The notes beneath the pieces were generated by a model that did not search any database, had not been told where the DNA came from, and was given only the letters and a program-made list of their open reading frames with translations. Positions 1-59,292 of a stretch of DNA of 64,000 nucleotides are shown one piece after another (the first letter of the stretch is position 1; the number at the start of each line of letters is the position of its first letter). This DNA is from Phytoseiulus persimilis. Its lineage: Eukaryota > Arthropoda > Arachnida > Mesostigmata > Phytoseiidae. The stretch is taken from assembly GCA_037576195.1 (NCBI GenBank), contig CM075102.1:9238001-9302000 (forward strand), read 5' to 3'. Made by a program: the position numbers and the translations under genes.

Positions 1-3000
1 GAGTTGGAAAGTAATGGCCAGATTGGTCTCAGAATCACCCCTCCAGACTTGGAAAGTGATAGTCAGAATAATCCCGTAATCACCCCTCCAGAGTTGGAAA
101 CTAATGGCGAGATTGATACCGGAATCACCCCTCCAGAGTTGGAAACTAATGACCAGATTGGCACCGGAATCACCCCTCCAGAGTTGGAAACTAATGGCCA
201 GATTGGCACCGGAATCACCCCTCCAGAGTTGAAAACTAATGGCCAGATTGGTCTCGGAATCACCCCTCCAGAGTTGGAAAGTAATGGCCAGATTGGTCTC
301 AGAATCCCCCCTCCAGAGTTGGAAAGTAATGGCCAGATTGGTCTCAGAATCCCCCCTCCAGAGTTGGAAAGTAATGGCCAGATTGGTACCGGAATCACCC
401 CTCCAGCGTTGGAAACTAATGGCCAGATTGATACCGGAATCACCCCTCCAGAGTTGGAAACTAATGGCCAGATTGGCACCGGAATCACCCTTCCAGAGTT
501 GAAAACTAATGGCCAGATTGGCACCGGAATCACACCTCCAGAGTTGGAAACTAATGGCCAGATTGGTCCCGGAATCACCCCTTCAGAGCTGGAAACTAAT
601 GGCCAGATTGGTCCCGGAATCCCCCCTCCAGAGTTGGAAAGTAATGGCCAGATAGGTACCGGAATCACCCCTCCAGAGTTGGAAACTAATGGCCAGATTG
701 GCACCGGAATCACCCCTCCAGAGTTGGAAACTAATGGCCAGATTGGTCTCGGAATCACCCCTCCAGTGTTGGAAAGTGATGGCCAGATTGGTCTCAGAAT
801 CACCCCTCCAGAGTTGGAAAGTCATGGCCAGATTGGTTCCGGAATCACCCCTCCAGAGTTGGAAAGTAATTGCCAGATACGTTCCGGAATCACCCCTCCA
901 GAGTTGGAAAGTAATGGCCAGATTGGTCTCGGAATCATCCCTCGAGAGTTGGGAAGTAATGGCCAGATTGGTCTCGGAATCACCCCTCCAGAGTTGGAAA
1001 GTAATGGCCAGATTGATACCGGAATCACCCCTCCAGAGTTGGAAAGTAATTGCCAGATAGGTTCCGGAATCACCCCTCCAGAGTTGGAAAGTAATGGCCA
1101 GATTGGCACTGGAATCACCCCTCGAGAGTTGGGAAGTAATGGCCAGATTGGTCTCGGAATCACCCCTCCAGAGTTGGAAAGTAATGGCCAAATTGGTCTC
1201 GGAATCACCCCTCCAGAGTTGGAAAGTAATGGCCAGATTGGTCGCGGAATCACCCCTCCAGACTTGGAAAGTGATAGTCAGATTGGTCTCGGAATCAACC
1301 CTCCAGAGTTGGAAAGTGATGGCCAGATTGGTTTCAGAATCACCCCTCCAGGGTTGGAAAGTAATGGCCAGATTGGTACCGGAATCACCCCTCGAGAGTT
1401 GGGAAGTAATGGCCAGATTGGTCTCGGAATCACCCCTCCAGAGTTGGAAAGTAATGGCCAAATTGGTCTCGGAATCACCCCTCCAGAGTTGGAAAGTAAT
1501 GGCCAGATTGGTCTCGGAATCACCCCTCCAGACTTGGAAAGTAATGGTCAGATTGGTCTCGGAATCAACCCTCCAGAGTTGGAAAGTAATGGCCAGATGG
1601 GTTTCAGAATCACCCCTCCAGAGTTGGAAAGTAATGGCCAGATTGGTACCGGAGTCACCCCTCCAGAGTTGGAAAGTAATGGTCAGATTGGTCTCGGAAT
1701 CAACCCTCCAGAGTTGGAAAGTAATGGCCAGATGGGTTTCAGAATCACCCCTCCAGAGTTGGAAAGTAATGGCCAGATTGGTACCGGAGTCACCCCTCCA
1801 GAGTTGGAAACTAATGGCCAAATTGGTCTCGGAATCACCCCTCCAGAGTTGGAAAGTAATGGTCAGATTGGTCTCGGAATCAACCCTCCAGAGTTGGAAA
1901 GTAATGGCCAGATGGGTTTCAGAATCACCCCTCCAGAGTTGGAAAGTAATGGCCAGATTGGTACCGGAGTCACCCCTCCAGAGTTGGAAACTAATGGCGA
2001 GATTGATACCGGAATCACCCCTCCAGAGTTGGAAACTAATGGTCAAATTGGCACCGGAATCACCCCTCCAGAGTTGGAAACTAATGGTCGGATTGGTCTC
2101 GGAATCACCCCTCCAAAGTTGGAAAGTAATGTCCAGATTGGTCTCGCAATCAGCCCTTCAGAGTTAGAAACTAAAGGCCAGATTGGTCTCGGAATCACCC
2201 CTCCAGAGTTGGAAAGTCATGGCCAGATTGGTTCCGGAATCACCCCTCCAGAGTTGGAAAGTAATTGCCAGATACGTTCCGGAATCACCCCTCCAGAGTT
2301 GGAAAGTAATGGCCAGATTGGTCTCGGAATCATCCCTCGAGAGTTGGGAAGTAATGGCCAGATTGGTCTCGGAATCACCCCTCCAGAGTTGGAAAGTAAT
2401 GGCCAGATTGATACCGGAATCACCCCTCCAGAGTTGGAAAGTAATTGCCAGATAGGTTCCGGAATCACCCCTCCAGAGTTGGAAAGTAATGGCCAGATTG
2501 GCACTGGAATCACCCCTCGAGAGTTGGGAAGTAATGGCCAGATTGGTCTCGGAATCACCCCTCCAGAGTTGGAAAGTAATGGCCAAATTGGTCTCGGAAT
2601 CACCCCTCCAGAGTTGGAAAGTAATGGCCAGATTGGTCGCGGAATCACCCCTCCAGACTTGGAAAGTGATAGTCAGATTGGTCTCGGAATCAACCCTCCA
2701 GAGTTGGAAAGTGATGGCCAGATTGGTTTCAGAATCACCCCTCCAGGGTTGGAAAGTAATGGCCAGATTGGTACCGGAATCACCCCTCGAGAGTTGGGAA
2801 GTAATGGCCAGATTGGTCTCGGAATCACCCCTCCAGAGTTGGAAAGTAATGGCCAAATTGGTCTCGGAATCACCCCTCCAGAGTTGGAAAGTAATGGCCA
2901 GATTGGTCTCGGAATCACCCCTCCAGACTTGGAAAGTAATGGTCAGATTGGTCTCGGAATCAACCCTCCAGAGTTGGAAAGTGATAGTCAGATTGGTCTC

Positions 3001-3690
3001 GGAATCAACCCTCCAGAGTTGGAAAGTGATGGCCAGATTGGTTTCAGAATCACCCCTCCAGGGTTGGAAAGTAATGGCCAGATTGGTACCGGAATCACCC
3101 CTCGAGAGTTGGGAAGTAATGGCCAGATTGGTCTCGGAATCACCCCTCCAGAGTTGGAAAGTAATGGCCAAATTGGTCTCGGAATCACCCCTCCAGAGTT
3201 GGAAAGTAATGGCCAAATTGGTCTCGGAATCACCCCTCCAGAGTTGGAAAGTAATGGTCAGATTGGTCTCGGAATCAACCCTCCAGAGTTGGAAAGTAAT
3301 GGCCAGATGGGTTTCAGAATCACCCCTCCAGAGTTGGAAAGTAATGGCCAGATTGGTACCGGAGTCACCCCTCCAGAGTTGGAAACTAATGGCGAGATTG
3401 ATACCGGAATCACCCCTCCAGAGTTGGAAACTAATGGTCAAATTGGCACCGGAATCACCCCTCCAGAGTTGGAAACTAATGGTCGGATTGGTCTCGGAAT
3501 CACCCCTCCAAAGTTGGAAAGTAATGTCCAGATTGGTCTCGCAATCAGCCCTTCAGAGTTAGAAACTAAAGGCCAGATTGGTCTCGGAATCACCCCTCCA
3601 GAGTTGGAAAGTAATGGCCAGATTGGTCTCGGAATCACCCCTCCAGAGTTGGGAAGTAATGGCCTTATTGGTCTCGAAATCACCCCTCCA
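1..3690 (+). repeat. 45-bp satellite array 1 (82 units)
   Basis: Tandem 45-bp units run from the first base of the window to 3690, exactly 82 units with no indel, so the array probably extends further upstream. Because 45 is divisible by three and the unit lacks stops in several frames, long open frames exist on both strands; the longest encodes a 15-residue repeat of the type ELESNGQIGLGITPP for 1250 residues. Most unit-to-unit differences change an amino acid in that frame (S/T, N/D/H, G/S, L/T/F/S/P, G/R, T/N), and opposite-strand frames are equally open. I therefore read it as non-coding satellite DNA rather than a gene. Confidence 0.93.
822..3555 (+). repeat. Higher-order duplication inside array 1
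   Basis: The block at about 822-2160 recurs at about 2217-3555 with an offset of 1395 bp (31 units), shown by shared rare variants such as the units ending CTCGAGAGTTGGGAAG and those with TGCCAGATACG. The two copies differ inside. Copy 1 carries a three-to-four-unit subrepeat near 1546, 1681 and 1861. Copy 2 carries a seven-unit (315-bp) duplication near 2673/2988. The equal total length appears coincidental. Confidence 0.85.
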
Positions 3691-4032
3691 GGAATTTTTA
3701 TGATAGATTTTTATGATAGATGTATAGGAGAGGAGGTGGGGAAGGATATCCGATGACGATGGGATGAGTCTGGCTGGCGTCATAACGGGGCGGTGCACCT
3801 TATCGTCAGAATTTGGATGCGGATGACAGTATGGAGGGGGTCAAAGTTGGGTTAAATCGCGAGGGGGGGAGGAGGGGAGGAGGAGGGGGGGAGTGGTGGG
3901 TGGCCTATGTCCTTCCCGGAGAGCCGCCCTACATTATGCAGTTTGTTCCAAGTCGATCCGATCAATACCAGAGGAGCCTATTGAGGACAAACAAACAAAC
4001 AAACAAACAAACAAACAAACAGACCCTGGATT
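3691..4032 (-). repeat. Satellite boundary module, copy 1
   Basis: This 340-bp segment abuts the last 45-bp unit. Read on the minus strand it runs from the end of the adjacent LINE through a (TTTG)n tract, a unique-looking stretch, a C-rich tract (G-rich on the plus strand at 3862-3893), and an AT-rich end with repeated TCTATCATAAAA, and then enters the satellite. The same module occurs twice next to array 2. It may be the 3' untranslated region of the LINE or an independent element; the sequence alone does not decide. Confidence 0.85.
3988..4021 (+). repeat. (CAAA)n microsatellite
   Basis: Eight CAAA tetranucleotides lie inside the boundary module. On the minus strand this is a (TTTG)n tract just downstream of the LINE coding region, the kind of simple repeat often found in LINE 3' regions. 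Confidence 0.9.
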
Positions 4033-12520: not shown

Positions 12521-13680
12521 AATCAGCAATCTATCATCTAACAAATACTATCTCCACGTCTCAGGAGACCTCTCTACCTTTCTTTTCGTACATGAGTGGT
12601 ACGGGATGCCTATCAGTCGACCGGTTCCGAGAATATTGAACTCGATCGAACACAAAAGCACTCAAATTCCATGATAAGTGATCCCACGTTAGAGGAGGGA
12701 TTTCTCAAAGAGCGTTGAGAATTCAGAAGAATTCACCTCCGGCTGGACGTGACAGCCCGTTATAGGGAGCATCTCTTTCCTCTTTTCGGAGATGGAGCCT
12801 GACTACGCCATGTCCAAAGAAGGGAATTTGTGAGCCGTTAGAACTCGCGGTCGGGAGCCGAAGTCCGTTTTCCACCGATGTTCTGCTCAGGGACCCAGTG
12901 CTTGGAGCCAGGTTTGGAAATCCGGAGCGGCGCTCAGAACTCAAAATTTATCCGAAACGATGAACGGTTCCAGAGGTGTGATGAACCCAATCACGGGGAT
13001 CGGACGTTTGCAGTACGCTTCGCAGAACGATTTAACAACGATTCCAACGAAGCTCGCTCAGGTTAAAACTTGGTCAGTGGGAGTTTCCGCCCGCAACCAG
13101 GAACGGGTGTAGGAGAACCAGGATACGGAACTCCTAATTGTATCTATCCACGTTTTTCCTCGAAGCATCGGGAGGATGATGACCACAATGGTCAATGCAC
13201 GATTCATATTTTCCCAGTTCGGGACAAGTGAAGACTATTTAGCTGATTCGGGTGAAAACACGAGATCATGTACCGCTGAGAAAGGACACTCTCCCCCCCT
13301 GCGAAGCTTATCAAAGCCTGCTCCCGAGCGCGGAATTGACTCTCGGTTCGGAGAAAACAAAAGTCCAAAATGAAGAGCAAGTCGCGGAAAATCTAGGAAT
13401 TCGGTATGGGTCTGAAGTAGGCTTCGAGGCATTCCTTGGAGGGTCGATTCGGGTTGGCTCTGAGTGTCGCTTCTTGGCGACATGTAAATGGTTTGGAGGT
13501 TACAATGATGCGGTCCTTTTTGTTCTTTTGACTTGGAGGCGACCACACGCTGCTGCGTGAGCTCTCAGTCAATTAGAGATTTCTACGACTTCTAGACAAG
13601 AATCCCGTGCTATCGTTAGTGAGACCCACTCAATCGTCTTCAGAGCACTTCCGACGAATCCTTTATCTCATCCTCTCACC
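12521..13680. other. No gene recognised
   Basis: Open frames here are at most about 100 residues, lie on both strands and show no recognisable motif. No strong repeat is visible. Confidence 0.6.
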
Positions 13681-13688
13681 GCGTCGAC

Positions 13689-14822
13689 TTGGAGACCTCA
13701 CTGAAGATTTCTGAGCTCGCCCATCTGGAGCAGACAACAGGAGCGAATCCCGGTGTAGGTGACAAGAGGCGGTCGATGTCGACTGCTTCGGCGACGTCGA
13801 GACTTGGCGACACCACCGTCATGTCTCCGCTGATGACACCGTGTGTTGACAATGACGACATGGTTAGCACCTGCGTGCATGCACAGCATCGAGACATGCA
13901 AGGCGATTCCACAGAGGGCGGGGAATTCGAATTCCCGAAAAGTCGCAAGCTTCGGCTCCAGCATGGGAAGCGGGCGATCATCTTTTCGGGTGACATCGGG
14001 GACATCACGGCGACATCTCTGGCGGCAGCCAAGCTCTTGTCGGGCGATTTTACGGAGCCGAGAATGACGGCGAATGGTGCACTGGCAGTGGAGGTGGACA
14101 ACGCGGACGACGCGGCCGTTCTCTCCCGGATCGAAACCCTGGCGGGCGTGTCGGTAACTCCGAGGGAGTCCAAGCCAAGGGTCCTCTCTAAGGGCATGGT
14201 GCTCGGCTTCCATCGCTCGTTCTCCGAGCCGTTGCTGCTGGAATCCTTGCGGAGCAGTGGCGTCACGGAGGCGGTGCGCATCAAGGCTCGGGACGCTCGT
14301 CTAGGAGCGCTCGTCCCGACTGACAGGGTCTCGTTGACTTTTGCGGATGGGCTTTCCATTCCAGAGCAGGTCGGCATCGGTCTGAAAGTTCATGCGGCCG
14401 TAGCCCACTACGAGTCGCTCCAGTGCTTCCGCTGCAACGTTTTCAGTCACGTATCGAAAAGCTGCGTGGTCCCTCAGGATTCGTCCGTCTGCCGCCGCTG
14501 CTCGGAGCGCGGGTACTTGGGGAAGCCGGCGCCTCTCCAATCAGCCCCGATCCACATCTAGGTTCTAACGGAGAAGATCTGCGCGCGGGTCATGGAGCGG
14601 TTTACTGCTGCGTGTTCCGCGATGAACGACGACTTGGTTACGGCTGTACTAATCAAGCTTATGTCGGCCTTCACGGAACAGATGGTTACAACTCTGCGCC
14701 GCTTGATGCCATCGTCCGCAACGGCACCCGTGGCGACTTTTGAGCAGACCTTCAACATCGAAGCGCTCGTCCGCAACGCGGCGGCCTCGCATAGGGCAGA
14801 ATCACCCCGTTCGAAACCATGA
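13689..14822 (+). pseudogene. LINE-2 ORF1, gag-like with CCHC knuckles
   Basis: One frame runs from 13689 to 14822 with a single TAG at 14559-14561. The N-terminal third is acidic and low in complexity. The middle (residues about 95-240) reads like the beta-alpha fold of arthropod LINE gag proteins. Near residues 243-275 are CFRCNVFSHVSKSC and CRRCSERGYLGKPA, zinc knuckles of which the second is degenerate. The part after the stop (ICARVMERF to SPRSKP) is alpha-helical. It ends in TGA overlapping the ATG of ORF2 as ATGA at 14819-14822, which indicates that the two ORFs belong to one element. Nucleic-acid chaperone and particle formation is the expected role of such ORF1 proteins. Confidence 0.78.
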
Positions 14823-16710
14823 CCAGCAGAAACCCACAAACAGGAGTGAACAGTGCGCCTGCACCTTCCTCCTCGGCGTTCCGCTGTCCTGTGTGCGACT
14901 TCGTCTCCGTCAGCCGTCGCGGTCTCAGCCATCACACGAGCCGCATGCACCCATCCGACCGCACAACCACTTCTAGTCAACCGTCTGGTCCTTCAACTTC
15001 ACTCAACGCACCCTCGTCGCCCACCGCGGTCTCTCAGGGGGCGCCAGAACCTCCTGAGGCCCTCATAAAGCGCATCAATACCTACAGGAAGAGCGCGAGG
15101 CTCATTTCTATCATCCCTCGGACTATACGAGCCGCGGTCGCCCAGGAGCTCACGGAGCCTCCAGTCGGCGCGCTGTGCTCTCGCAGCCCGTAGACGACCC
15201 TTCGCGGGTCGCTCGACTGGTCCAGCTCAAGCTCGCTCAGAGGGACGTTTGAGCCACGGCGCGCACTTTGCTCTCAACGGACGTCACGGCTCCTGCGGAC
15301 CTGGCCACGAGGCAGACTCTCGAGTCAAACAACCCGATTTCCCTCCTTCGTCGCTGTTCCCTCCGGCGCCCCGCCCACCCGCTGTCATCGATGAGGTTCA
15401 GGTTTCGGATTTGGAGGTACGAGCAGCTATTCTCAGCTCCCCCAGCAGTTCCAGCCGCGGCCCGGACGGGATTCGTCCGCGCCACCTGAAGGATCTCATC
15501 TAAAATTACTGTTACCCGTTGGTGGGGGCACTAACAAAATTCTGCACGATGGTGATCAACGGGAGACTCCACGAATTCGTGTTGGACACGTTTCAAGGCG
15601 CTGACCTCCTGGCGCTCCGCAAGAAAGACGGTTGGATTCGGCCAATTGCTATTGATCTTGCATCCGCCGCCGACGCCTGGAGGCAGGCCTCCTTGCGGTC
15701 TCTGTCGGCGATTTGGGGATTCGTTCCGTTGAGGATCTCGCCACGCCTGTTCACGTGAGCTCCATGTGCCAATTCAGGGAGCTAGCCGCTAGCTTCTCAC
15801 CCCCGGCCGTTAATGCCCACCTCGGATCGAGAATCGACAACCAACCCCAGGCTTTCCGGGATCGCTGGCACGCCACTCCGGAGAAGATCTCCCAGGCGGC
15901 ATTCGACGGTATTGTCATTGGGGTGCGTCGAGCTGAGCTCATTGAGGCCGCCTCCGGGGAGCGTGAGCGCGCAAGATTCAACGCGGCATTCCATCCCAGT
16001 AGCGGCAAATGGCTTTTCGCGATTCCGTCACCCTCCGTTGGCACGTGCTGGACAACAACACACTCCGCATCGCTGCCGGCCTCCGTCTGGGGTTGCCTTT
16101 GTGCTCACCCCATACATTCGCCAGATGTAGCTCTACGGTGTCCGCGATGGGCGATCACGGCCTCAGCTGTTCGCGAAGCGCAGGTCGTCACCCTCGCCAT
16201 AGGGCCCTAAACGCCGTCATCTCCCGCGCACTTGGCTCCGCTATGATTGCCGACCAGCTGGGGCCCACGGGCCTCTCCCGGAGCTCAGCTCTCCGCCCCG
16301 ACGGCATAACACTGACGTCGTGGGCCAGGGGAAAGTCGCTCGTCAGGGACGCCACAGTGTGGGATACCCTCGCGCCATCACACCTCACCGCTGCAGCTAG
16401 AGAGGCCGGTGCGGTTGCTTGTCTCGCCGAGAAGAACAAATTCACGAAATACCGAGAGTTCGAAAGCCGCCATATCGTGCAACCCATTGCCTTCGAGACG
16501 CTTGGCGTCGTTGGGTCATCCACCGAGGGTTTCCTCAAGGACCTGGGACGCCGAATCGAAATCTCTTCCGGGGACAAACGGGCGTCTGAGTTCCTCTTCC
16601 AAAGACTCTCAATCAAGATTCAAAGGAGCGGCAGTTCGCAGGTCTCTTCCGACCGGGCCGGACCTACCTGGCATCGGTTAGCGGGTCCTCAACTTTCAGA
16701 TCCACATTGA
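14819..16710 (+). pseudogene. LINE-2 ORF2: C2H2 finger, RT remnant, RLE-like nuclease
   Basis: The order is a C2H2 zinc finger (CPVCDFVSVSRRGLSHH...H, 14883-14950), a helical stretch, the RT entry motif SSSRGPDGIRPRHLK near 15455, ALRKKDGWIRPIAI near 15620, then immediately AWRQASL near 15675 and LGIRSVEDL. The roughly 300-residue RT core between IRPIAI and AWRQASL, including the catalytic DD motif, is missing. The C terminus has a C/H cluster (GDHGLSCSRSAGRHPRH near 16150) followed by RPDG and DATVWDTLA near 16300-16370, resembling a PD-(D/E)XK restriction-like endonuclease. Several frameshifts (near 15200, 15710, 16030) and a stop at about 15503 disable it. Confidence 0.78.
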
Positions 16711-16734
16711 CTGCTAATTATGATGAATGAATAG

Positions 16735-16932
16735 AATCTCATGATGCGGTTGAGATGCTCATTCCTTCAGACTTCTGACAGGGGGGAATGTCTTGAACCG
16801 ATCCTCGTGGGGATCAACAACTGCCGCTATGAGGTGCGACAATCGAGAAGCGCCACCGTCGATGGCACGGTCGAAGGTACGATCCAGTTCTCTGAGCTCT
16901 CTCTACAGTGGATTATAGTAGTCTCGTCAACA
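16735..16932 (-). repeat. Conserved 3' flank of the IR segment, copy A
   Basis: The stretch downstream of the IR-A stop matches 26690-26940 (IR-B) and 40500-40740 (IR-C), with shared GATGCG...TGAGATGCTC, TCCTGACAG and GATCCTCGTGG or its variants. In B and C it still encodes a similar peptide (FLPSTDSWHQLWRGKEEPLC) on the minus strand, so it may be a former 3' exon or conserved UTR. Confidence 0.65.
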
Positions 16933-18960
16933 TTAAGTCCGCTTCACTATCATCTTCCGAGCGCGAAAACTGCCCATCAATGAAAAGGGTGGATAGAGCA
17001 TGAGTGCGCGGATCTCATTCCAGTTCTCGAGCGCCAGCACTAGAGCACAGAGAAGAATCGCGGACAACGAGAAGAAGATCGAACCTTTCAGAGAATCCAG
17101 GGATACCGCTGCCCTTTGATCAAAACCGACCATATTGTATCTGATGTACTCCTCTTTCAAGTGGAGCATATTCTGCTTCAGGTAGGCTTTCACTTTTTGG
17201 ACATACGGGTCGCCACTGGCCCAATATCTGTTCTCTCTTTCGTCGTCCCCGGCACTCGATCCAAGCTGGTTCCCGCGGCGAGTATAAGTGAACAAAGAGT
17301 TCTCCAAACCTTTCCGGAGAATCCAACGCACGGGGAGAGTTATGCAGAGCTCCGCCGATCGATGGCTCAGGACGATTTTCTCTTCTAGAAGCAGCCCTTC
17401 TGCTTTGATCATGTTTGCTTGGATCTTGATCAAATCCAACTCCCCGCAGAGAGCTTGATCGAGAAAGAGCAGAAGTAGGACAGTTTCATTCCCGAATGAG
17501 ACTGAGCGACACGCACTGTGCTCTTTTTCTGTCGGATGGCACTCCTTGTGTGAAAGACTGGGTCGGACGGCGCTTCGGTTCCAAACCCTGGAGTCATGGA
17601 ATAGATCCTGGGAATAAATGTTGCTCTGCTTCAGCAGGTCTCTGGCGGCGCCGTTCATACAATGTGAAAAGCGGCACCCTGAGACAGGTATTCGCGAATC
17701 TTGAGCGAAAGAGATGACTTCGCCTTGTAGAACGTAGAGCAGAAGGAACTCGAAAAACATACTCAATGCAAGGAGAAATTTCACTGAGAAATTCACGTTC
17801 CTGAGACAAAAGTGGAATAGCATGACGCAGGAGAAGAGCGCGTCGAAGAACACATCAAGCATCCTGAACCAAAGATGCTGTCGAGGCTCGCTGCTCGAGG
17901 CGGAGGTGACGATCATTATGTAGAGACAGCCGAGCATCGGTGGAAAGAACGAACCCATTATCAGGTAGCCAGCAGATCGGGAAAAGGCGACTGAAACGAG
18001 TGAAGCCTCACGATGCTGTTCGGGGATTGCTAATCGGAAGACTCCTGAGTTGTAGTAATGCATGAAGTAAACGCTCTGGAATATCAGACGTTTGCTGTGA
18101 TGTTCATGCAATCAGGACCCGCCCAAATGGAATTCTTGGAGCAATTCTAAACACCTATATCTTACCTCGCCACGACAGTCGGAAACATGTAGGAGTCGCG
18201 AATCTTCAGCTTTTTGCATGACTCCATTCAGTCCGAAGTAAAGCCTCTGGGAACCGTTGCGTTCAGGAATATCGAATGGATTCCCAATAAGTTTTCTGCT
18301 CAAACGAAGAACCTTCCTGGCGGCCAGCTTCGGATATCCGAAGCAAGGGTCAGAATCCACGATACACCCGAATCGATAGATGCTTTCAGAGGTCAACTCT
18401 CGCGATCCTCTGAGTCCTGGAACGTCCGGTGCGGTGTACATCAAGAGGAGCAGCTTGGTGAACCTTATGGCGGGATGCAGATATCTCAAGAGTGCTTTCA
18501 GAACGGTTTCCCCGAAATGCCTGTGTTGCTGATGCATGTTAGATCCGGAAGGCAAGGAATCCTTGTCCGCCCCCTCAACTGAGTACGGATAGAGGAGGAT
18601 CAGAACGCGAAACTTCCAGTTGTACACATCGAGGTCCACCCTCGCACGATCGCAGTTTTGATGACCACAATGGGGAACTTGGGAGCCTGTGCGACTCCCG
18701 AGCTCGAGGCAGGTTGAAACGATCTCTCGTTGATTTTTGTGAAACCAGGCCGTTGGCTGTGTATCTCGGAGGAATGTGACTTTTCCCGAGCGAAACCGAT
18801 CGAGGTTGACTGTGGGACAACCGGATACAGCTATCGAAAGATGGAAATCCGCTGCCGTTTGAATGATCTGAATCAGGTTCAAGGCGTAATCTAATACGGG
18901 TTCCTCTCGAGGAATAACTGATTCCAGGAGGGCTATCATCAGGAAACCAGCCGCCAGCAT
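16933..18960 (-). CDS. Divergent ionotropic receptor (IR-A), two exons
   Basis: Exon 1 is 18960-18166 and exon 2 is 18075-16933. The 90-bp intron has a GAG|GTAAGA donor and a TTCCAG acceptor in phase 0, giving 645 residues. I start at MLAAGFLMIALLESV, a good signal peptide also present in IR-B and IR-C, rather than 54 codons upstream. Exon 1 encodes the extracellular N-terminal half. Exon 2 has TM1 at residues about 302-322, a pore-like hydrophobic stretch at about 341-355, TM3 at about 363-385, a long S2-like region, and TM4 at about 595-615 preceded by VSLDSLKG and followed by LENW, the typical end of arthropod IRs. It is expected in the membrane of chemosensory neurons as a ligand-gated cation channel subunit; the ligand is unknown. 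Divergence is high, so assignment to the IR family rests on topology and the TM4 motif. Confidence 0.75.
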
Positions 18961-20460
18961 GGTTTCCCTCCAGATCTCTGTGTGAGTTGAGAATGATAGA
19001 GAAATTAAATCCCTTGTCGTTCGGATCTGAAGCAAGGAGTCCGCTCTTCCAACGACCCGTTTGATGCAATCTGCTGTTGTTAGGGTATGCCCAGGGATTT
19101 CGGTGCGGCACTTCGAAGCCACTCTAAATTTTGGGGCAAGATAAAGTCAAGGAAACCGCCTCTCTCGGCGGCTTCCCAGGAAGGCACACCTGGAGCCGCG
19201 CATGGGATGCTGAGAGCGTGTTCTTCCTTCAAATATTTGCGCGGGATAGATCGATGGAAACCGAACGTGTCCAAAATGGAGCCACTCGCGTTTTGCGCCC
19301 AGCAAGGTCCTCGGACACAATTTGAGGTCTTGCTGAATCAAATCGGCATAGCAGGCAGCTGGGAGCTCGTTTCATTCGGCCAGCGAGACTGATGAAGGAG
19401 CCGAGTCAGAAAACTAGCCGCCCGCAGAAAAGTTGGAAAGAGTAGAGGGGGAGAGAAAGCTTCGCGAGAAATCGCCACGACATGAAGCAAGCGGATGTGC
19501 TGTGTCGGATTGATACGAAGGCTGAATATTCACAGAGTAGAAGACGGGATCGTTCTCTCATGATTTCCGTTGAATTCCATTGGTCGGGCCAGGGGTGTGA
19601 TGATGATGAAGATTATGATGGTCATCATCGTCGTGAGCTATTCATAACGCAATCAACGTAGTTTTCAAGCCTGTGAGGATGTTTCTGATGAGACTGAATC
19701 TTTACGGGATACTTTATTCGTTCCAAGTAGAATATAGTCCGCCCTTTCCAGCATGAGCGAAGACCTCTGAGGGGGGCATGGGTGACCCTTCTCTTTGTAT
19801 ACGCCACGGCGTCCACCGTAAACAGGGTGTTCGCTGTAATCTGTGCCAAAGCCGTTGAGGATTGACGATTTACGAGCCTGTTGGAGTTGGGAGTAGAGAA
19901 AAAAAAGGGAGTCGACTTCGACAAGCTCTCGAATCACCAATTCTCAACCGGATTTTGGAGAAAAAAATCGAAAAGATACGTCTTCTGAAGAACGATCGGA
20001 CAAAAGTATGCACATCCCAAGGTTCGAGGCTTTCTTGGACCCCGTCCAACACGCATCTCAGCGGGGCGATGCTTCGCCACATGTTCGTCTTCGGAATGAT
20101 CGAAAATGGACATCTTGAACGTGCTACACTTCTACCAGATCGAAGAAAACTCCCAATTTCCTCTCCGTGGGGGCGGAAAAGAGTGCTCCGGAATTTGACC
20201 CAATCAAGCACTCCGGATCGATCGAAGAACCGAGGAATTCTCTCCGCTCTGAGAACCATGCCACATAAGCAGGCCTGGTTCTGCCGATTGAAGGCTCATC
20301 TAGATGCAACTCAACGAATTCTAATATTTTTAGGCGGAAATAATGCTCCTGCCTCATGGAGTTCGAGCGGGAATGAGCCATGGAGGGGGGATTCCGAGCC
20401 AATGACACCAGCGCCTTCTTCGTCTGATGAATGCTGTTTACTCTATCACGCGAAGGCATA
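18961..20460 (-). repeat. Upstream DNA of IR-A, shared with IR-B and IR-C
   Basis: Sequence upstream of IR-A recurs upstream of IR-B (30118-31740) and partly upstream of IR-C (42766-43618). Landmarks are GAGAATGATAGAGAAAT, AACGACCC near the gene, GGAAAGAGTAGAGGGGGAGAG, and a GATGATGAT/CATCATCGTCGTGAGC stretch near 19600-19640. It may contain the promoter. I see no independent gene, and short open frames here do not stay open in the other copies. Confidence 0.7.
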
Positions 20461-57842: not shown

Positions 57843-59292
57843 ATGAAGTTGTCGCGGTTACACTGGTTCCACCGGTGGAGCCCCTTCTACGAAAGACCAA
57901 CGCTTCTACGGAATCCATCCCAGAAACTTTTGTTCGTATATTTCGCTGCGTGTATCGCTTGCGTCTACGTTGTCTACGTGGTCTCAGCTCCGAACGGCGC
58001 TCCCTCAGTGTCCGATCTCGAGGTTACTTCGAACGATTATCCGGCCAGAGTGGCGATGCCCACTGTGCACCATGAGCCTTCGAAACGAATCAATTTTAGC
58101 CCGATCAAAGACATGAATTCAGATGGGGGAACTAAAGATCAAACCGTGCTCTCGATCACGGAATTCAAAACGATTTTACTCTGGAATTCATTTTTCAAAC
58201 AACCCGACTACATTCCGCCGCTATCGAGCATGTGTCCTGGCTACCCCTGCAACATCACATCGAACCGCTCAGCGGAGGCTGACGCTGTCATCGTTCACCT
58301 AAGAGACATCGACGCCGGGGATGTTCCGAAACGCAGGTCACGTGATCAGATTTTCGCGCTCCTGAATGCAGAAGCGCCCCCGTACTCCCCGCCACTTCCC
58401 GACACATTCAACGATCTATTCAATTGGACAATCACATATCGGCTGGATGCTGATTTTCCACTGATCAAGACGGCGGAGAGCTTCTATCGCTATAAACAAA
58501 TGAGCAAGCAAGACTACTTTGCCAACAAAACGAAAATGGCCGCCTGGTTCGTGTCTCACTGCAGTACTTCAAGCGAGCGCGAGACTCTGGTGTCTGAACT
58601 CGCAAAGTACGGTGTCCATACCGATATTGTCGGAACCTGTGGGCCATTGAAATGTCCACGCGACGAAGCCAATGATTGTTACAAAGAGTTCTCGAAACAC
58701 TATCTTTTTTACCTGAGCTTTGAGAATGCCATATGTACAGATTATGTGACTGAGAAACTGTTCAACGCGCTGCAGTTTGGAGAAATGGTCCCTGTGGTAC
58801 TTGGCGGTGCAGATTATTCGAGGGTCGCGCCACCCGGAAGCTATATAAATGTGAATAAGTTTGGTAGTGTCAAAGAGCTCGCGCTATACCTGCAGAAAGT
58901 TGGCAACGACCCGAAACTCTACAACAGCTACCATCAGTGGAGGTCAGTCTGAAGATCAATAACGAAAACGTATACGCTTCATTAGATCATTTCAATTGTC
59001 AATTGAACGGAACGATGAGCGGAAACTCTGAGCTCGAGATTGTATCGAACAATTACTTAGCCTTGGTCCAAGGAATCGACGATTCCCGGGGTGGTCGAAG
59101 TCTACAATGACTCAATGTCTCAATTTTTCTTTCAGGAATTTCTATCAGTTGACGGAGCCCATGCACTACGCCTGCAGACTCTGTGCCAGACTGCACACAG
59201 TTCATCGGCGGCGCATGTACCAGGACTTCAACGCTTACTGGCATACGAACACATGCCATGGGAGTTGGAGGAAAGCCTACAAGATCCATTGA
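57843..59292 (+). CDS. Alpha-1,3-fucosyltransferase (GT10)
   Basis: Two exons, 57843-58942 and 59136-59292, with a GAG|GTCAGT donor and a TTTCAG acceptor 193 bp apart, give 418 residues. It is a type II Golgi membrane protein: short cytosolic tail, TM at about residues 29-48 (LLFVYFAACIACVYVVYVV), stem, then the GT10 catalytic domain. Conserved blocks are FNWTITYR, the VSHCSTSSER to VGTCGPLKC region, and the nucleotide-sugar motif LSFENAICTDYVTEK with FNAL-GEMVPVVLGG. Exon 2 supplies the cysteine-rich C terminus (CRLCARLH...TCHG) normal for insect core alpha-1,3 enzymes. The enzyme transfers fucose from GDP-fucose to N-glycans or related acceptors; the exact acceptor is not visible. Splicing at the first donor-like site is required, since the unspliced frame stops 10 bp later. 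Confidence 0.93.

Follow-up and report, generated by a model that had tools for sequence, protein, structure and literature searches.

Copies of a dispersed LINE family in Phytoseiulus persimilis very probably join a three-knuckle ORF1 to an R2-like ORF2 of the restriction-like endonuclease type

We analyzed a stretch of 64,000 nucleotides from the genome of Phytoseiulus persimilis (assembly GCA_037576195.1, contig CM075102.1, positions 9,238,001 to 9,302,000 of the forward strand; hereafter, the window) and found that it holds a dead, decayed copy of a long interspersed nuclear element (LINE). This copy very probably belongs to a family of non-long terminal repeat (non-LTR) retrotransposons with two overlapping open reading frames (ORFs), in which an ORF1 with three CCHC knuckles is followed by an R2-like ORF2 with a restriction-like endonuclease (RLE), and which is dispersed in the genome with target-site duplications (TSDs) of 10-11 bp. 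A first-pass annotation, made from the letters of the window, had described a gag-like ORF1 that overlaps an RLE-type ORF2, and had argued that the two frames belong to one element. This argument is supported: a single pair of TSDs spans the unit, and four other copies in the same genome (L031, L045, L051 and L052) have the same order with a stop-start overlap. The whole unit covers positions 13515-16740 of the window and is therefore wider than the 13689-16710 originally delimited.

The two-ORF architecture is real at the family level. We searched the source genome at the DNA level (181 Mb in 127 contigs; 40 of 142 candidates were scored) and obtained at least 67 matching stretches, several of which consist of ORF1 and ORF2 parts in the same order, so that the arrangement in the window is not due to chance. 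In L031, an ORF1 of 450 aa from the first Met (501 from the preceding stop), with three CCHC knuckles, overlaps by ATGA an ORF2 of 870 aa up to a stop inside the nuclease region; this ORF2 contains a C2H2 finger, a reverse transcriptase (RT) with FLDD, a C/H knuckle and an RPD...D region. L045, with an ORF1 of 442 aa from a Met and an ORF2 in two pieces, is 67% identical to L031 in ORF1 and 63% identical in the longer ORF2 piece. For L051 and L052, the identities to L031 are 31% and 27% in ORF1 and 41% and 39% in ORF2, respectively; their ORF1s measure 581 aa between stops and 555 aa from a Met, and both ORF2s stay open to the end of the fetched DNA. Across copies that show the pairing, protein identity can be as low as 27-47%. 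L055 has a damaged ORF1, but its ORF2 remains open as far as its own stop (990 aa when counted from the chosen Met). In this copy, at 284-3748 of the minus strand, decay has merged part of ORF1 and all of ORF2 into one open frame of 1155 aa, with FSDE standing for the catalytic Asp pair. The two ORFs overlap by ATGA in the window, L031, L045 and L052, and by ATGTCTAG in L051. Recent copies are also present, with protein matches of up to 99% to the ORF2 of L052 and up to 99% to that of L051. When L052 ORF2 was compared with prokaryote and viral contig collections, no relatives outside this genome were found, a result that, given these collections, says little.

We also counted how often the two ORFs occur together. 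Among 70 ORF2 match rows, 20 start at residue 130 or before, and for these ORF1 was sought on the same strand within 2.5 kb upstream. An ORF1 match was located upstream in 17 of these 20 N-terminus-reaching matches, 13 of the 17 within 250 bases. L031, the query copy, is among the 20, and one insertion (in a duplicated segment at C2:28.3 Mb) appears in them twice, so that the figure per distinct insertion is 16 of 19. Four further ORF2 matches from the L052 search (C48:7697, C3:35289098, C1:2529329 and C1:28140214) were inspected by eye, and ORF1 adjoins in all four. The ratio of nonsynonymous to synonymous substitution rates (dN/dS) between L031 and L045 is 0.112 for ORF1 (434 codons, dS 2.08) and 0.116 for ORF2 (680 codons, dS 2.53), which shows constraint on both and no precise rate. 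The other 14 between-family pairs comprise nine ratios of 0.085-0.383 and five pairs with infinite dS; close copies, compared in ORF1 only, gave 0.284 for L031-L032 (360 codons) and 0.354 for L031-window (297 codons). The copies with both ORFs in order to which the first-pass annotation had looked for support are thus at hand, namely L031, L045, L051 and L052 together with the 17 ORF2 matches, and a meeting of the two ORFs at this place only is excluded by the genomic copies.

The window copy has the following parts, in order along the unit:

13505..13514, no strand: left target-site duplication ATGATGCGGT, an exact 10-bp repeat flanking both sides
13515..13775, plus strand: 5' untranslated part of the element; common 5' end at about 13517
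13776..14822, plus strand: ORF1 remnant in the frame of 13602, from the family's first Met to the TGA at 14820-14822
14424..14465, plus strand: CCHC knuckle 1 (CFRCNVFSHVSKSC), a motif in the translation
14522..14525, plus strand: ORF1 deletion scar; 315 L031 bases absent (rest of knuckle 2, knuckle 3 and the following part), with a 4-base microhomology
14819..15193, plus strand: ORF2 N-terminal piece, whose ATG overlaps the stop of the ORF1 frame (ATGA)
14885..14950, plus strand: C2H2 zinc finger CPVCDFVSVSRRGLSHHTSRMH, by Pfam and motif; it aligns weakly to the R2 N-terminal finger
15153..15155, plus strand: ORF2 deletion scar; 157 L031 bases absent and the frame lost
15249..15653, plus strand: start of the RT domain (..SSSSRGPDGIRPRHLKDL..KKDGWIRPIAI) in the frame of 14820, which is interrupted by a stop at 15501-15503
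15654..15654, plus strand: deletion scar; 891 L031 bases absent, comprising the fingers and the palm of the RT, catalytic Asp pair included
15655..16040, plus strand: post-RT linker in the frame of 14819, by translation
16117..16170, plus strand: C/H knuckle preceding the nuclease, in the frame of 14821; its first Cys is Phe in the window copy
16171..16632, plus strand: putative restriction-like endonuclease region, with RPDG at 16294, ..VRDAT.. and AEKNKFTKY
16633..16740, plus strand: last part of the ORF2 frame, up to 16710, followed by the 3' tail; by alignment to copies
16741..16750, no strand: right target-site duplication ATGATGCGGT, an exact 10-bp repeat

The ends of the unit are common to several copies: in alignments to the fetched copies, the matches of L031, L032, L035 and L036 start at window positions 13517-13523, the common 3' end lies at about 16731, and ATGATGAATRAA is present at the 3' end in 10 of the 14 loci listed. 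The sister copy L031 measures 4,582 bases between the same ends as the window element, and its aligned blocks are 91.5-94.8% identical to the window, from which 315, 157 and 891 of its bases are absent. We read these three gaps as deletions and rejected an intron reading, because no absent block runs GT...AG and two of the junctions share 3-4 bases; the 891-base block can be read as starting with GT, yet it has no AG end.

Several details of the first-pass annotation have to be modified for this copy. Its gag-like ORF1 with zinc knuckles is recognizable by knuckle 1, but this is the only whole knuckle left: knuckle 2 is damaged (H to Y, last Cys lost), knuckle 3 is deleted, and an in-frame TAG at 14559-14561 interrupts the frame. 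The ATGA at 14819-14822 was found as described, with the ORF2 ATG starting at 14819 and the TGA of the ORF1 frame at 14820-14822. The C2H2 finger, the C/H cluster and the RPD...D motif claimed for ORF2 are likewise present, except that the cluster has lost its first Cys. The claim that cannot be kept is that of two open frames. Neither ORF is open here: ORF1 has the TAG, and ORF2 is split across three frames. The RT has also lost its core, with the catalytic motif in it. We also rejected a 290-aa window ORF1 starting from TTG: the family frame has its first Met at 13776, and the deletion scar precedes the TAG. In Pfam searches of the window (E up to 1), finger models matched in 14819-15193 only, and there was no match in the ORF1 piece 13689-14561 or the nuclease piece 16009-16710; the domain reading therefore rests on the relatives.

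For ORF2, these relatives are L031, L045, L051, L052 and L055. The Pfam model RVT_1 matched all five (2.6e-15 to 3.2e-20); one C2H2 motif is present in each, with the C2H2-like finger matches mostly below the cut-off. Among solved structures, the RT appears nearest to R2 RTs: the ORF2 profile matched the R2 chains 9nl2 (9.6e-20), 9nl3 (6.9e-18) and 9dou (1.5e-17) and R2Bm 8gh6 (1.6e-10), and matched human L1 at 2.4e-9. The alignment to R2Bm (domain E 6.6e-6) extends from the RT across the knuckle as far as the nuclease PD. Four of the five ORF2s have F/YLDD as their palm motif, and L055 has FSDE; the Y/FLDD of L031, L045, L051 and L052, where the R2 and L1 proteins in the alignment have FADD or YADD, may be a signature for tracing the lineage elsewhere. 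Behind the RT, the motifs RPDG, LV.DAT, AE..K and KY are invariant in six aligned tails, and the decayed window row alone departs from LVWDAT. Tail identity to the first row is 49% for L051 and 47% for L052; variants occur in further copies, with RPDC and TEY in L041 and TKH in L003 and L040. Models of the apurinic/apyrimidinic endonuclease type (APE; Exo_endo_phos) matched none of the five family ORF2s, and matched both R1-like ORF2s of the same genome that served as controls (4.7e-22 and 5.9e-23). The Pfam scan of the ORF2s gave no Myb match, with no R2 control run alongside. By our own count the C/H knuckle has the spacing CX1-2CX9HX3C, slightly unlike the CX2-3CX7-8HX4C published for RLE elements (PMC5678591).

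The knuckles of ORF1 follow the order CX2CX4HX4C, CX2CX4HX4C, CX2CX3HX6C in all four ORF1s. Pfam zf-CCHC scored above the cut-off in L031 and L052 and below it in L045 and L051, and the best PDB matches of L031 ORF1 were retroviral nucleocapsid knuckles (2.3e-5). Low-identity ORF1 matches in the genome include L053 (32%) and L054 (30%), the sole two examined, both of which are APE LINEs that we take to be R1-like. Between the family ORF1 and an R1-like ORF1, identity is 31% over 147 residues at the knuckles, and the profile E-value is 8.5e-11 over 85 columns. In the AlphaFold model of ORF1, the strand-helix order upstream of the knuckles fits two units like the RNA recognition motif (RRM), in a block with pLDDT values of 39-64, and no Pfam RRM match was found in the family ORF1s scanned. 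ORF1s of type I (RRM plus CCHC) are reported from the I, Jockey, R1, Tad1, plant L1 and L2 clades (PMC4120745), and the ORF1 of this family is most likely of that kind, as in R1/Jockey-like APE LINEs.

The insertions observed are dispersed. TSDs of 10, 11 and 11 bp flank the window element, L031 and L035, which are all three of the distinct insertions with both ends known, and the sites are unrelated; the TSDs of L031 and L035 are other sequences than that of the window and lie some bases beyond the aligned ends. This check covered five loci with a 5' coordinate, of which L036 is the L035 insertion with the same flanks and was not counted apart, and L032 gave no TSD, its 3' coordinate being a match break and not the element end. 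No 28S ribosomal DNA (rDNA) target was encountered, as Rfam, applied to 119,007 bases from eight sources, gave no match that reached the gathering score. L035 and L036 (C2, about 28.37 and 28.32 Mb) are one damaged insertion that occurs twice, some 50 kb apart and with identical flanks of 45 bases, which suggests duplication of a host segment.

Several observations weigh against the reading of these copies as one RLE-type family with a type-I-like ORF1, or against parts of it. No ORF1 was detectable at three of the 20 ORF2 matches (C3:25295381, C3:6076093 and C4:27235533). The dS values between L031 and L045 (2.1-2.5) are near saturation. In ORF2, the N-terminal finger alignments to R2 are weak (domain E-values 0.098 to 6.7), and the PD...D stretch of R2Tg was aligned at negative scores (-1.8 and -2.1 bits), to which we give no weight. 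A profile of the RLE tail alone found no PDB chain up to E 10, and no Pfam model matches the tail; the candidate RLE assignment draws on the place behind the RT, the knuckle, the conserved motifs and the R2Bm extension. With mean pLDDT values of 45.5 and 43.9, the two AlphaFold models are of poor quality, and Foldseek with the ORF2 model put human L1 ORF2p first (1.2e-7) and R2 from 2.5e-7 onwards, with TM-scores of about 0.2; the fold comparison was therefore given no weight beyond the RT. In an RT tree of 11 rows, the family forms one clade (100/99), within which L051 and L052 group together (99/99); the tree recovered no link of the family to R2, L1 or R1, and did not join R2Bm, which fills 39% of the columns, to the two other R2s. 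As for ORF1, the likeness to R1-like ORF1s consists of the knuckles, about 20 residues before them and a stretch after them (BLASTP), and the RRM part and the origin of this ORF are weakly supported.

These points can be set against three other explanations. The window could hold a chance meeting, in which an ORF1 fragment of an APE LINE came to lie beside the R2-like ORF2 fragment of an unrelated element. This would agree with the damaged pieces that are all the window has of both ORFs, and with the distant relatives of ORF1 in R1-like APE LINEs. However, order and overlap are the same in four other copies of differing families, which already refutes it, and both the adjacency in 17 of 20 matches and the single TSD pair enclosing the whole unit argue in the same direction; we regard a chance meeting as extremely improbable. 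It is also very unlikely that the ORF2 tail is no endonuclease but a decayed or RNA-binding part, with cutting supplied in trans. The tail on its own has neither a PDB nor a Pfam match, but its four motifs are invariant in six rows, and in the alignment the PD of R2Bm falls at the corresponding position.

A more serious contender is that the family is an ordinary member of a catalogued RLE clade (NeSL, HERO, R4, CRE or a non-site-specific R2) of which a two-ORF form has already been recorded, in which case it would hold nothing new. SLACS is such a two-ORF element. The LINEs of Entamoeba have two ORFs and a restriction-enzyme-like nuclease (PMC3118788, PMC2996970), and dispersed, non-site-specific R2-like elements exist (PMC5035012, PMC7650587). 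On the other hand, the RLE group or R2 is given as having a single ORF (PMC5678591, PMC7650587), and Utopia as having generally one protein (PMC4640811). Among the papers listed, titles and the openings of abstracts showed neither a type-I ORF1 joined to an RLE ORF2 nor an animal RLE LINE with a CCHC ORF1, in a comparison that left Repbase and most subscription papers outside, a scope that favors the catalogued clade. We give this explanation a substantial chance, though one somewhat short of even.

Returning to the two-ORF RLE-type retrotransposon, we propose a mechanism that takes its steps from LINE biology, and the order and overlap of the ORFs, the domains (by sequence), the constraint, the TSDs and the dispersal from the copies themselves. 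One bicistronic RNA would carry both ORFs, and ORF2 would be translated through termination-reinitiation at the AUGA overlap, for which the UAAUG coupling of SART1 is a parallel. ORF1p would coat and chaperone its RNA via the CCHC knuckles. ORF2p would bind the 3' end of the RNA, its RLE would then nick dispersed targets, and the RNA would be copied by target-primed reverse transcription. The type-I-like ORF1 would have been kept with the R2-like ORF2 long enough for the two to diverge jointly. RNA folding at the ORF junction and the 3' end of the folded copies gave no structure better than shuffles (z-scores +1.90, +0.86 and +0.07).

RLE LINEs are described as having a single ORF and APE LINEs as having two (PMC5678591). 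Because the Entamoeba LINEs already pair two ORFs with a restriction-enzyme-like nuclease, the family is a rare variant and not a first; in animals, the combination is seldom described. We tentatively suggest, at somewhat less than even confidence, that an animal RLE lineage captured a type-I, R1/Jockey-like ORF1 from APE LINEs and kept it through diverging families with a coupled junction while inserting genome-wide and not at one rDNA-like site. If this is true, the family would supply the combination that is missing between the R2 group with its single ORF and the APE LINEs with their two. The occurrence of a gag-like ORF1 with an RLE-type ORF2 in a stable family shows that the two modules are not exclusive, and makes it testable whether ORF1 accompanies freedom from a fixed target, and whether it can move between LINE groups. 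The family would also offer a natural counterpart with two proteins to R2, now under development for transgene insertion (PMC12222951).

Elsewhere in the window, which has a GC content of about 50%, a host gene fragment lies at 57843-58952 (plus strand); its fucosyltransferase domains match Pfam Glyco_transf_10 (2.9e-50) and the N-terminal partner of that model (2.4e-20). A 1250-aa open frame at 4-3756 (plus strand) and two adjoining open frames of 392 and 336 aa just downstream of the element, at 16933-19122 (minus strand), had no Pfam match at 0.001.

When compared with known systems, the family resembles the RLE group in its RT nearest to R2, its C/H knuckle followed by a PD...D tail and its lack of an APE match, and departs from it in the single-ORF trait, as ORF1 lies upstream in 17 of 20 matches. 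Because the RT tree did not recover the link to R2, the element is filed provisionally as an RLE-type LINE lineage with a type-I-like ORF1 and not as R2. The APE LINEs L053 and L054 of the same genome also have an ORF1 with three knuckles; they differ in ORF2, which contains an APE domain, shows the conventional YADD in its palm and lacks an RPD tail in the frames read. L054 carries an APE-RT frame of 1138 aa. SLACS and CZAR of the CRE clade have two ORFs with an RLE and target the spliced leader in trypanosomes. The ORF1 of Entamoeba LINEs is not known to carry CCHC knuckles. EhLINE and EdLINE of Entamoeba are like the family in having two ORFs and a restriction-enzyme-like nuclease in ORF2 (PMC3118788, PMC2996970). 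BLAG of Blattella germanica and the R2NS elements are like it in having one or two C2H2 fingers, an RT, a CCHC motif, a nuclease and dispersed insertions, and c-myb was not found in BLAG; as described, however, the BLAG elements have one protein each and no gag-like ORF1 (PMC7650587). Membership in BLAG was considered and rejected, as BLAG motifs 1 and 2 had no significant match in the five ORF2s (best E 0.32). Finally, the R2 elements (R2Pm 9nl2, R2Tg 9nl3 and 9dou, R2Bm 8gh6) share with the family the succession of an N-terminal C2H2 finger, an RT, a C/H knuckle and a nuclease region with PD. They have a single ORF, carry a Myb motif and insert into 28S rDNA (PMC7650587), whereas the family has an ORF1 and dispersed insertion.

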